Shown in pieces: positions 21,494-29,703 of a DNA stretch of 39,854 nt. A program made the translations under genes and the position numbers. Under the pieces are notes generated by a model. That model saw nothing but the letters and a program-made list of their open reading frames with translations, was not told the origin of the DNA and did not search any database. The first letter of the stretch is position 1. Each line of letters begins with the position of its first letter. The DNA is from Clostridia bacterium (GTDB lineage: Bacteria; Bacillota; Peptococcia; Peptococcales; BICA1-8). The stretch is from positions 1-39,854 of the forward strand of contig JAAXZE010000014.1 of NCBI GenBank assembly GCA_012720075.1. Reading direction: 5' to 3'.

Positions 21494-22084
21494 CTATTTG
21501 TTTTTTTCCTTCAAAAAACCGTGTTTAAAGAATTCTATCAACTGTTTGACGGTTTCTTCAAAGGTTAAACCGTTGGAAAGGATGAATTCAGGATTGCCCA
21601 CGGCATCTATGGCCGCCAGCATTGCCGTAATAACAACCCGGTAATCGAGGTCCCTTAGATAGGCCTTATTTTCCTCATGAAATAATTTAGCCATAAAAAC
21701 ATTTTTAATTATTTCCTTCCGGAAGGCAGCGATTTTCTTCCATAAATGGGGATAATGCTGCCTTAAATCATCTAAAACCAAAGGGTTCCCGATATTTAAC
21801 CGTAAGTGGTTAACATACTTAAATATTTGGATAAACATTTCATCGGGGTTATAATGTACAGCTGTTAATTCATTAATTTTTTCAGATATATCGGCTAAAA
21901 ATACATCAATAGCCGCCTCCACTAACTCATCTTTGCTGCGATAGTAGCGGTAAAGGGTCCGTTTGCTTATACCGGCCTCCGCCGAAAGTTCATCCATGGT
22001 CACCCGGTAAAATCCTTTCTTGGCTGCAAGGTCCAAAAACGCCGAAAGTATTCGTTCTTTGATAGTAAAACCTCCTTTTAACAC
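21494..22084 (-). CDS. TetR-family transcriptional regulator
   Basis: Up to 196 residues. The HTH is clear: RVTMDELSAEAGISKRTLYR, then YYRSKDELVEAA. The start is uncertain. The only conventional codon is a GTG at 22084, which lies inside a perfect palindrome and has no ribosome site. A strong AAAGGAGG sits seven to eight codons inside this frame, and 7 bases after it is an ATC (22061-22063). The conserved TetR fold begins right after that ATC. The gene follows the exporter operon by 225 bases on the same strand and may regulate it. Confidence 0.8.
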   Translation of the reverse strand: MLKGGFTIKERILSAFLDLAAKKGFYRVTMDELSAEAGISKRTLYRYYRSKDELVEAAIDVFLADISEKINELTAVHYNPDEMFIQIFKYVNHLRLNIGNPLVLDDLRQHYPHLWKKIAAFRKEIIKNVFMAKLFHEENKAYLRDLDYRVVITAMLAAIDAVGNPEFILSNGLTFEETVKQLIEFFKHGFLKEKNK

Positions 22085-26326: not shown

Positions 26327-26430
26327 TTAGTTTTATATTAGCACCTTGCTGCGATAAAAACAATATTCCCTTGAATGACAGTGAATATTTTTTTAGCTTC
26401 ATCAAAAAATAACGGCAGGAGGTGTTTTAT

Positions 26431-26931
26431 ATGAACGCTTTTTTAACCCAAAAAGAAAGGCAGCTCTTGGAAACCCACAAAAGGCAAGAAGAATTATGCA
26501 TCCAAAAATATCAAACCTATGCCCAAGAGGCCCAATGCCAGCAGTTGAAACAATTGTTCAGTAACTATGCTCAAAAAGAGCAACAACACTTAAGTACCAT
26601 TAATCAAATATTAAACGGGCAAATTCCCAACGTCTCGCAGCAAGGCAGTCAAGGAAGTCAACAGCAGACAACCACCCCAATTATTCAAGGGAACCAAAGC
26701 AATCCGTCAGCTAATATGTCTGTGGGAACCACCAATCAAAGAGACATGTATTTATGCCAGGACGCCCTGGAAACGGAAAAACATATTTCCAGTTCTTACG
26801 ATACCACCATCTTTGAATTCTCTAACTCCCAAATTCGCCAGGTTTTGAATCACATTCAAAAAGAAGAACAACAGCATGGTGAAGGAATTTCCAACTACTT
26901 GCAAAGTAAGGGTATGAACAATCTCTCATAA
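26431..26931 (+). CDS. CotF-like spore coat protein (ferritin-like fold)
   Basis: 166 residues, nearly all helix. LTQKERQLLETHKRQEELCI and the EKEQQHLSTI-type repeat near residue 50, then ALETEKHISSSYDTTIFEFS and IQKEEQQHGEGISNYL near 145, match the Coat F domain. A Gln/Ser/Asn-rich linker (about 65-105) splits the two halves. AGGAGG lies 8 bases before the ATG at 26431. It is monocistronic with its own terminator. A coat role is inferred from the family; no sporulation promoter was clear. Confidence 0.82.
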   Translation: MNAFLTQKERQLLETHKRQEELCIQKYQTYAQEAQCQQLKQLFSNYAQKEQQHLSTINQILNGQIPNVSQQGSQGSQQQTTTPIIQGNQSNPSANMSVGTTNQRDMYLCQDALETEKHISSSYDTTIFEFSNSQIRQVLNHIQKEEQQHGEGISNYLQSKGMNNLS

Positions 26932-26936
26932 AAGCC

Positions 26937-26974
26937 AAAAGCCATGATGAGGAATAATCCTTATCATGGCTTTT
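26937..26974. terminator. Bidirectional terminator between the CotF-like and cytochrome genes
   Basis: 17-base arms (26937-26953 and 26958-26974) around an ATAA loop, starting AAAAGCCATGAT and ending ATCATGGCTTTT, with one mismatch pair. It serves both convergent genes. Confidence 0.88.
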
Positions 26975-26979
26975 GCAAA

Positions 26980-28317
26980 TTATATAGACTTTAGATATTC
27001 AACCAAATCCTTCTTTTCCTGCTCACTAAGATTAAGCTTAAATACTTTGTTATAATGATTCACCACGTCCAGAAGGGTTGCAAAACGCCCGTCGTGATAG
27101 AACCCGCCTTTCTGGTGGGTCCAAAGGCCCCTTAAAGGCGCGGTCCGGTACATTCTTTCCGGTGACCTGTCGGCCTGAAAACTGTCAATTCCTATTTCTT
27201 CCGGTTTATGCATATTAAAGCCCGGTTCTGTAAACATAGGAGGCACATGGCAATTACTGCAGCGGGCTTTCCCGTTAAAAATCCTTTCTCCCCGGGCTGC
27301 TGCCCGCTGATCGAAAGAACCGGCGGGCGCCTTGGGGGCTTGAAGGGATAATTGATAAAAATGCAGTGCCGGAAGCTTCGGAGAAATTAAATCCGGTTCC
27401 ACTTTAACATTCCAAAGGCCTGCCCTGGCGGCAACGGGAAACTGTTCCGGATCATTCAATCTGACATCCAAAAATCTCCCTTTGCCGTGCATTTCCAAGT
27501 TAGCTACAAAAGCATTCCAGTAGGTCATGGAACCAAACCCTGTCCAGGTACTCAAATTTACTCCGGTTAAACCGAAAGCCGGAGGAATCAAGACGGCCGC
27601 CGTTTTTCCGTCAGGACGAAAACCTTTGCCGTCCAATACCAACAGAGCATCAAATTTGCCGGGTCCCCAAGCTAATAAGACTTCACGAACGGTCTCCACA
27701 TCCACCTGCAGTAAATCCGCAAAAGGCTGCAGGTTTGGCGCCAAAGCAATTATGGCCCCCACATTTAAATCCCTGTTTGCCCAGCCATCCAGGCGGCGTC
27801 CGATGCCCGGAGCTAGAGAATCATCTACCGTTGAATGACAGAGAGCACACTGAATTCCTACAGAAGTAAGCTGCCCCTCGGAATTAAAAAATCCTTTAAC
27901 CCCTACTACGGCATCATTTTTTAACAAAGCCACCGTTGTTGCCGGATCATCCAGATTAACCTTGCCTTTCTTTAATTGCTTTACCAGCGAAGAGGGTAAG
28001 GCCTCCGAGTCCACCTTTAAGCCTAAGGTCAAGGCCGTTCTCGGACTTAGCCCCGGCCCCACTCCTCCCAGTTGGGACCCTTTAATGGCTTCATGAAGCC
28101 TTAGAGTCTGACCCCAAAATTCTTCACTGCCAAAAGTGTCGTACCTGAAAATAGCTTTGCCTTCGTTAAGGAAATCTTCTGTACTTTTCTGGGTCTCTTT
28201 GGCAAAAGAGCGAATAAAGTTCGGTCCAAGGTCCAACTTAAAAAAAACTATGGCGGAAATGCCAAATAAAAGAAGCAGAAGGGCAGGAATTAGATATATT
28301 TTTCTAAGGCGAGGCAA
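26980..28317 (-). CDS. Di-heme c-type cytochrome, cytochrome c peroxidase / MauG-like
   Basis: About 445 residues. An N-terminal membrane anchor (IYLIPALLLLLFGISAIVFF) is followed by two CxxCH heme sites: CALCH near residue 157 and CSNCH near 354. The C-terminal TAPLRGLWTHQKGGFYHDGR, then FATLLDVVNHYN, is the di-heme peroxidase hallmark. It would work on the outer face of the membrane, as a peroxidase or electron-transfer protein. The start is unclear. The TTG at 28317 is 19 bases from the only AAAGGAGG, while the codon 7 bases after that site is ACG (28327-28329). That AAAGGAGG lies in a long inverted repeat. Confidence 0.85.
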   Translation of the reverse strand: MPRLRKIYLIPALLLLLFGISAIVFFKLDLGPNFIRSFAKETQKSTEDFLNEGKAIFRYDTFGSEEFWGQTLRLHEAIKGSQLGGVGPGLSPRTALTLGLKVDSEALPSSLVKQLKKGKVNLDDPATTVALLKNDAVVGVKGFFNSEGQLTSVGIQCALCHSTVDDSLAPGIGRRLDGWANRDLNVGAIIALAPNLQPFADLLQVDVETVREVLLAWGPGKFDALLVLDGKGFRPDGKTAAVLIPPAFGLTGVNLSTWTGFGSMTYWNAFVANLEMHGKGRFLDVRLNDPEQFPVAARAGLWNVKVEPDLISPKLPALHFYQLSLQAPKAPAGSFDQRAAARGERIFNGKARCSNCHVPPMFTEPGFNMHKPEEIGIDSFQADRSPERMYRTAPLRGLWTHQKGGFYHDGRFATLLDVVNHYNKVFKLNLSEQEKKDLVEYLKSI

Positions 28318-28335
28318 GGTGATAAACGTACTTAT

Positions 28336-28379
28336 GCCTCCTTTAAAATAGCATTTATAATATCTATTCTAAAGGAGGC
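28336..28379 (-). promoter_or_regulatory. Inverted repeat that would sequester the cytochrome gene's ribosome site
   Basis: On the plus strand GCCTCCTTTAAAATAG (28336-28351), a 12-base loop, and CTATTCTAAAGGAGGC (28364-28379) pair at 15 of 16 positions. In the minus-strand RNA the 3' arm contains TAAAGGAGGC, the Shine-Dalgarno sequence of the cytochrome gene, base-paired to an upstream CCUCC. No U-run follows, so it is not a normal terminator. Confidence 0.7.
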
Positions 28380-28420
28380 GATTTTATTACCTAATCCTTC
28401 CGGACACTCTCATCTATCGC

Positions 28421-28547
28421 TAAGGTTAAGGTTCCGCTTCGCTAGGTTAAGGTTAAAATTATGATTAGAGATTCTAGCTTCTCTGTAGAACTGTAAGGCT
28501 GTAGAACTACAAATAATCTTAACCTCAACCTCAGCCTTAACCTTAAT
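28421..28547. repeat. Intergenic region with inverted and dispersed repeats
   Basis: TAAGGTTAAGGTT and GCTAGGTTAAGGTTAA at the left face TCTTAACCTCAACC and GCCTTAACCTTA at the right, about 60 bases apart, so the region could fold back. The left part shares an exact 15-mer with 22112-22126. GTAGAACT occurs twice (28486 and 28501 area). No coding capacity is seen. It lies just after the DUF362 gene stop (minus strand). Confidence 0.55.
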
Positions 28548-28551
28548 GTTT

Positions 28552-29703
28552 TTACTCCTCGCCCTTAATAAACGCCAAGATTGCCGAACCTACAGGAGGA
28601 CAGCCTTTGCAGAAGCCTTTGCCACGGGCCTTTTGGGCCGTACAATTGCCGATGAGAAATACATCTTCCCGGGCTGCCTCCTCAAAACTCAGGTCCCGGC
28701 CGGTAGCCAGGGTAAACCGGAAATCTTGAGGAAAACGATGGCCATGGGCTTTTAGAAACATCATGACAGCGGCACTGCAGGCACTGCAAGTACCTTTCTC
28801 AATTAAGCCTATATTTGGATAAATATTCGGCAAGGTTGCCAAGTCGGCCGGAATAAATTTTTGGCTGTATTTCATATAATCTTCCGGAATGACTTGAATT
28901 TCATCTAGAGTAGGCCCACCGCATCGCTCCCGAACCAAATTCAAATGGGCTATGGAATCCCAAGGCATACCCATCAGCATCACCCCGACAAAATCAGCGG
29001 CAATGGAGTCTTTACTGGCAACAACCAAATTTAAATTCTTTGGGGTTCCGGCACTGGGTCCAAAACCCTCCATGCAAAAAGTACCATCCAGAACCGCATA
29101 ATGGGGCAGCAACACGGAAGCCATATCGGCAATACCCCAGTCCAGGCACCGGCCTTTATTTTGATCGGGGCAGGGCTTATCAATACGATGGAGAATCATT
29201 TTCTCTCTTTTTAAGAGGCACCCTTTCATATTCTTAATGCTTAAGGTCACTCCGGTGTACATGTGGGTCTTAATGACCGGAACCGAAACAACCAAATCCG
29301 TTTCGAAAACCAGAGAACTAAACCTGAGCTTATCTACCATTATCCCGTCGGGTATGGCTATATCCACAGGGTCACATTCATCCAAATTGACCAGGGTCAC
29401 CCCTTCTTCCTCACAAACCTCTGTGATACCGGCCCATTGAAAAGCTTTCCAGACATCAATACCGGTCAATGCTCCGTCACCGACAAAAATTTCCCCTGCT
29501 CCCTTATCTTTAAAAAACCTGATCAGGCCTCGAAGAACTTCTGCATTGGTGCAAAGGGCCGAATTCCGGGGACCAATGCGGCCTGCATTGGGTTTTAAAA
29601 GGATTTTCTTGCCCTTTGCCTCATCTTCAAAGACTTCTTCCAAGGCTTGATAAGCCATCAAATGGGGTTCAAACCCGTGTTTCACCGTCACCAATGGGCT
29701 CAT
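28552..29703 (-). CDS. DUF362 domain protein with C-terminal cysteine cluster
   Basis: 383 residues. The DUF362 core is clear: KILLKPNAGRIGPRNSALCT near 33-52, VVSVPVIKTHMYTGVTLSIK near 140, NMKGCLLKREK, and YAVLDGTFCMEGFGPSAGTP near 202-221. The C-terminus has Cys motifs (KGTCSACSAAV near 302, then IGNCTA and GFCKGCPP near 355-375) that could hold a metal or Fe-S cluster. DUF362 proteins have no settled biochemical role. It is the last gene of the T-box-controlled unit, 20 bases after the TAXI binding-protein gene, so it may process what the transporter brings in. Confidence 0.82.
   Translation of the reverse strand: MSPLVTVKHGFEPHLMAYQALEEVFEDEAKGKKILLKPNAGRIGPRNSALCTNAEVLRGLIRFFKDKGAGEIFVGDGALTGIDVWKAFQWAGITEVCEEEGVTLVNLDECDPVDIAIPDGIMVDKLRFSSLVFETDLVVSVPVIKTHMYTGVTLSIKNMKGCLLKREKMILHRIDKPCPDQNKGRCLDWGIADMASVLLPHYAVLDGTFCMEGFGPSAGTPKNLNLVVASKDSIAADFVGVMLMGMPWDSIAHLNLVRERCGGPTLDEIQVIPEDYMKYSQKFIPADLATLPNIYPNIGLIEKGTCSACSAAVMMFLKAHGHRFPQDFRFTLATGRDLSFEEAAREDVFLIGNCTAQKARGKGFCKGCPPVGSAILAFIKGEE

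Follow-up and report, generated by a model that had tools for sequence, protein, structure and literature searches.

A predicted hairpin over the Shine-Dalgarno sequence and an ACG codon at the start position of a di-heme cytochrome gene in a Clostridia bacterium

The leader of a MauG-like di-heme cytochrome c gene from an uncultured, anaerobic Clostridia bacterium contains a hairpin in which the whole Shine-Dalgarno (SD) sequence is paired with an upstream anti-SD, and the codon that follows at normal SD spacing is an ACG. The gene lies in a stretch of 39,854 nucleotides (hereafter the window; contig JAAXZE010000014.1, positions 1 to 39,854, of assembly GCA_012720075.1). Computation establishes the hairpin, its exceptional strength for this genome, the occurrence of a hairpin of different sequence over the SD of sister orthologs, and the alignment of the ACG with the ATG of relatives; in the cell the hairpin would presumably reduce translation. 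On balance, an SD-occluding lock combined with an ACG start, resulting in low or conditional translation of the cytochrome, is the probable reading. Cytochrome production is probably sparse, or waits until something opens the hairpin, and the feature most likely represents a translational lock whose general type is known but which belongs to no family described in Rfam.

The cytochrome protein scores below the cut-offs of the profiles that it matches (TIGR03791 MauG, 34.3 bits, cut-off 443.9; PF13442, 22, cut-off 27) and is therefore only a relative. None of the 114 near-invariant columns of the cytochrome alignment deviates in the window protein, which rejects a pseudogene, and the genome also encodes a cytochrome c assembly protein. 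Homologs occur across many phyla, but this genome is the only one of those sampled from its class to have the gene, with the nearest orthologs in other Bacillota (wider searches of which added few), suggesting that the gene was laterally acquired. Amongst relatives the gene stands alone, in differing neighbourhoods. In the window it is convergent with a gene for a coat-F/rubrerythrin-like protein (26422-26931, plus strand), the two having a likely terminator in common, and a REP-like dispersed repeat lies upstream of the hairpin (Table 1). The 46 matches of this repeat in the genome indicate that the contig belongs with it.

Table 1. Positions of the cytochrome gene, its leader elements and neighbours in the window, and of further candidate near-cognate starts in the genome
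Feature	Position	Strand	Basis
MauG-like di-heme cytochrome c gene, intact, two CxxCH motifs, 449 codons from ACG	26980..28329 (26980-28317 from TTG)	-	profile search, conserved columns
Likely bidirectional terminator hairpin between convergent cytochrome and coat-F/ferritin-like genes	26936..26975	.	inverted-repeat search
TTG, first usual start codon, 19 nt from SD	28315..28317	-	aligns with conserved internal Leu5 of relatives
ACG, homologous start position (ATG in L004, L005, L060, L088), 7 nt past SD	28327..28329	-	alignment with relatives
Hairpin 3' arm CTATTTTAAAGGAGGC	28336..28351	-	repeat search, fold
Shine-Dalgarno AAAGGAGG, entirely within 3' arm	28337..28344	-	leader sequence, SD opening energy
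Hairpin loop, 12 nt, A/T-rich, ATATTATAAATG	28352..28363	-	fold
Hairpin 5' arm (anti-Shine-Dalgarno) GCCTCCTTTAGAATAG	28364..28379	-	repeat search, fold
REP-like dispersed repeat, intergenic, core about TTAACCTTAACCTAGCGAAGCGGAACCTTAACCTTA	28400..28552	.	46 genome matches including itself
DUF362 protein gene, upstream, same strand as cytochrome	28552..29703	-	ORF, profile search
Candidate near-cognate start ATC	L103:16741	-	SD spacing 4-8
Candidate near-cognate start ATC	L104:2051	+	SD spacing 4-8
Candidate near-cognate start ATT	L104:3157	+	SD spacing 4-8
Candidate near-cognate start ATA	L163:7982	+	SD spacing 4-8
Candidate near-cognate start CTG	L181:1597	-	SD spacing 4-8

On the minus strand the leader reads ...AATAAAATC GCCTCCTTTAGAATAG ATATTATAAATG CTATTTTAAAGGAGGC ATAAGT ACG TTT ATC ACC TTG CCT... 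A preliminary description of this DNA had recognized a 16-base inverted repeat with 15 pairs, one arm of which provides the only strong ribosome site of the gene, and had proposed that the RNA hides that site; the coordinates, the pair count and the location of the sole strong SD (AAAGGAGG) inside the 3' arm were all confirmed. As RNA the hairpin comprises 16 pairs (15 Watson-Crick and one G-U at the 16th position), and folding supports the hiding of the SD. The leader fold has a z-score of -4.45, with none of 200 shuffles as good, and opening the SD takes 19.8 kcal/mol. In a sample of 413 genes of this genome with a strong SD, this energy has a 99th percentile of 11.3 and a maximum of 16.5 kcal/mol, so every one of them falls below the cytochrome gene and the SD stem is stronger than the genome-wide expectation. 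Inverted repeats of equal quality number 49 in 1.17 Mb of the genome, nearly all of them terminator-like, and none of the others has an SD within an arm.

The native mRNA is modelled here as carrying the 5' arm. No good promoter emerged from scans of the region, and the transcript may therefore lack the 5' arm. It is conceivable, if unlikely, that the gene has a promoter of its own inside the repeat, in which case the native mRNA would lack the 5' arm and its SD would be free, and only transcripts arriving from the upstream DUF362 gene would fold the hairpin and stay untranslated. Read-through shielding of this kind has been described for some insertion-sequence transposase genes. Consistent with such an arrangement, the A/T-rich loop holds TATTAT (a 5/6 match to the -10 box), the DUF362 gene is co-oriented, with no terminator found on this strand in the intergenic region, and the cytochrome gene of relatives is not tied to any one neighbourhood. 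However, the -10 box in the loop lacks an acceptable -35 (the best matches 3/6 at 19-nt spacing), and the best-scoring promoter would begin transcription inside the SD itself.

Phylogenetically, the window gene groups with the sister family f53 (L084, L086 and L088; support 80), and all three of these orthologs possess a hairpin that pairs an anti-SD with a G-rich SD, in the same place and with a sequence that differs from the window. The f53 hairpins have energies of -15.7 to -22.3 kcal/mol and are matched by 0.7, 0 and 0.2 percent of 434 control genes, respectively, and by none of the 138 control genes with G-rich SDs. Counted on the sequences, the distance from the anti-SD to the end of the SD comes to 42 nt for the window gene, as against 40-41 nt for f53 and 43 nt for L087. 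The latter ortholog and L085, both from other lineages, have weaker, suggestive hairpins only (matched by 6 and 8 percent of the 434 controls, respectively), the hairpins of the remaining orthologs are unremarkable against the same controls, and L006/L089, a single member of the same gene clade as the window, is without the hairpin. A shuffle test on contiguous stems gave P values of 0.005 (L084), 0.002 (L086), 0.51 (L088) and 0.04 (L085); 11 of 200 control genes had P below 0.02 in this test, compared with about 4 expected. Orthologs outside the Bacillota showed no hairpin enrichment, with P values about uniform, and conservation of the hairpin across the whole family is rejected on this absence.

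The preliminary description had held that arms not conserved in relatives would count against it and had looked to covariation for support. The sequence of the arms is indeed unconserved, but the structure is retained at the same position in f53. In an arm-anchored alignment, set by hand and with one bulge taken out of L088, the arms are 96.7 percent paired, two-sided changes occur at 5 of 10 pairs, and the covariation score (0.70 vs 0.35 shuffled) was reached by none of 500 shuffles and beat all slides. In contrast, only one of nine pairs covaried in an automatic MAFFT/RNAalifold alignment. Covariation of the arms is thus supportive, not proven, and the case that relatives preserve the structure and not the sequence is good but not conclusive. 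The leaders of L084 and L086 also have a second hairpin (CCGGC...GCCGG) immediately upstream of the SD hairpin. Four Syntrophothermus-type orthologs (L007, L008, L010 and L011), in which the SD falls in a long predicted stem whose loop spans about 50 nt (together with the start codon in three), were not counted, with P values of 0.01 to 0.48 and compensatory changes absent. At least three of these orthologs have a tRNA-like sequence upstream.

That the repeat is a recent quasi-palindrome without a regulatory role, with the ACG marking the onset of decay in a laterally acquired gene or an error in the consensus, is rather improbable. The apparent lateral acquisition, the rarity of ACG starts in bacteria and the excess of low P values among the control genes all fit a chance origin. 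The intact near-invariant columns of the protein, an SD opening energy above every control gene and the hairpin in the same place in each of the three sister orthologs weigh against it.

As the preliminary description had it, the codon at the 7-base distance is ACG, with a TTG 19 bases away as the first usual start; both points hold. The reading frame is open from the ACG, and the orthologs begin with an ATG after a well-spaced SD (MIVKLPRKWK in L004, MVFKLPGTRK in L005, MVIKLPGGRK in L060 and MVLRLPGGRK in L088), in the same column as the TFITLPR of the window, i.e., (ACG)FITLPRLRK. The SD-to-start spacing of 7 nt is the same in f53, and in L087 the likely start is a TTG in the column identical to the ACG position. 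Because the ACG aligns with the ATG of relatives and the TTG with their conserved Leu5, the ACG, which combines homology to the ortholog starts with normal SD spacing, is by alignment the true start position of the cytochrome gene, and translation presumably initiates there. It is distinctly unlikely that translation begins instead at the TTG (28317), with the SD remote or absent and the ACG irrelevant; TTG is a usual start and the product from it would be a plausible signal-anchor protein, but the starts of relatives lie four codons before their Leu5 and there is no other SD before the TTG. The ACG could be a consensus error or a strain polymorphism; as a genuine start, it plausibly damps the output of the cytochrome further.

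Further genes of this genome apparently have near-cognate starts at ideal SD spacing (Table 1), as judged solely from domain boundaries and the distance to the SD, with consensus errors possible there too, so the ACG does not appear to be an isolated case, although no other ACG start is well supported. Two of the five genes listed encode spore germination permeases, with a Pfam match from residue 1. Within the window, a TetR-family gene (21497-22063, minus strand) has an ATC as its only well-placed start, 7 nt after AAAAGGAGG; its TetR_N match runs from residue 5 and would be truncated by initiation at the next usual start, a TTG lying 27 nt downstream. A broader interpretation can be offered only tentatively and is unlikely to hold in full: that a dedicated, structurally conserved lock sits on a laterally spread cytochrome, that near-cognate starts (ACG, ATC, ATA, ATT and CTG) are commoner than expected in ordinary genes of this genome, and that the hidden SD and the weak start would jointly set a very low output.

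The preliminary description had also raised a DNA operator that covers the SD by accident. Such an operator, bound by a dimeric regulator, has little probability: a near-perfect palindrome adjoins the start codon and a TetR-like gene lies in the same window, but the repeat is unique and its sequence turns over in relatives at a fixed position over the SD, no further site emerged from a loose search over 1.39 of the 2.64 Mb of the genome (best other place, 17/20 half-site bases and no palindrome), and an operator would not usually have 16-bp arms whose centres lie 28 bp apart. The single copy also rejects a mobile or dispersed element, and a terminator of the upstream gene is rejected by the lack of a T-run past the stem on the minus strand. 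Within the energy model, the thermosensor that had been suggested can be discarded: the SD is unpaired in <0.1 percent at 37 °C and still only about 7 percent at 85 °C, so the stem does not melt in the physiological range and temperature cannot be the signal. Rfam searches of the whole window, of the leader itself and of nine relatives returned no relevant match, to an aptamer family or otherwise, and no aptamer-like domain was found in the leader.

Under the favoured translational lock, the leader of the cytochrome mRNA would fold such that the whole SD pairs with the upstream anti-SD and ribosomes would be unable to load at equilibrium. Translation of the cytochrome would then be confined to a weak basal rate, or to times when the hairpin has been opened or prevented from closing; candidate triggers include a ribosome that loads before the RNA has folded, an RNA-binding protein, a helicase, a small RNA (sRNA) or a ligand. 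Translation would proceed from the ancestral start position, now an ACG, which would lower the output further. If correct, anaerobic Bacillota would possess a self-contained RNA element, conserved in position and outside the known riboswitch families, that shuts off translation of a respiratory-type cytochrome, and a laterally spreading gene would bring its own translational control. The ACG would be one of few candidate bacterial ACG starts with comparative support for its position, and a warning that gene callers restricted to ATG, GTG and TTG misplace such starts.

Several known systems share parts of this arrangement. RNA thermometers (ROSE, FourU) likewise pair the SD in a hairpin, whereas the cytochrome stem is not predicted to melt at physiological temperatures, and translational riboswitches likewise occlude the SD but do so with an aptamer, to which nothing in this leader corresponds. 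The AUU start of infC (apparently an ATT in this genome as well) resembles the cytochrome start in placing a non-AUG codon at the ideal SD distance, but infC-type starts use AUU, AUC or CUG in an autoregulated initiation factor, while here the codon is ACG and the gene encodes a cytochrome. In the ISPpu9 transposase mRNA, a 5' UTR structure is thought to block the ribosome binding site (RBS) and is opened by the antisense sRNA Asr9 (PMC8450116). Like the cytochrome leader, that structure adjoins REP elements (PMC8450116), but it belongs to a transposase with an antisense sRNA, whereas the present case is a short local hairpin on a cytochrome gene with no known antisense RNA. In the tisB mRNA a sequestered RBS similarly limits translation, and tisB additionally depends on processing and on a single-stranded standby site further upstream (PMC7708055). 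By analogy, opening by an antisense sRNA or the use of a standby site is conceivable in the cytochrome leader.
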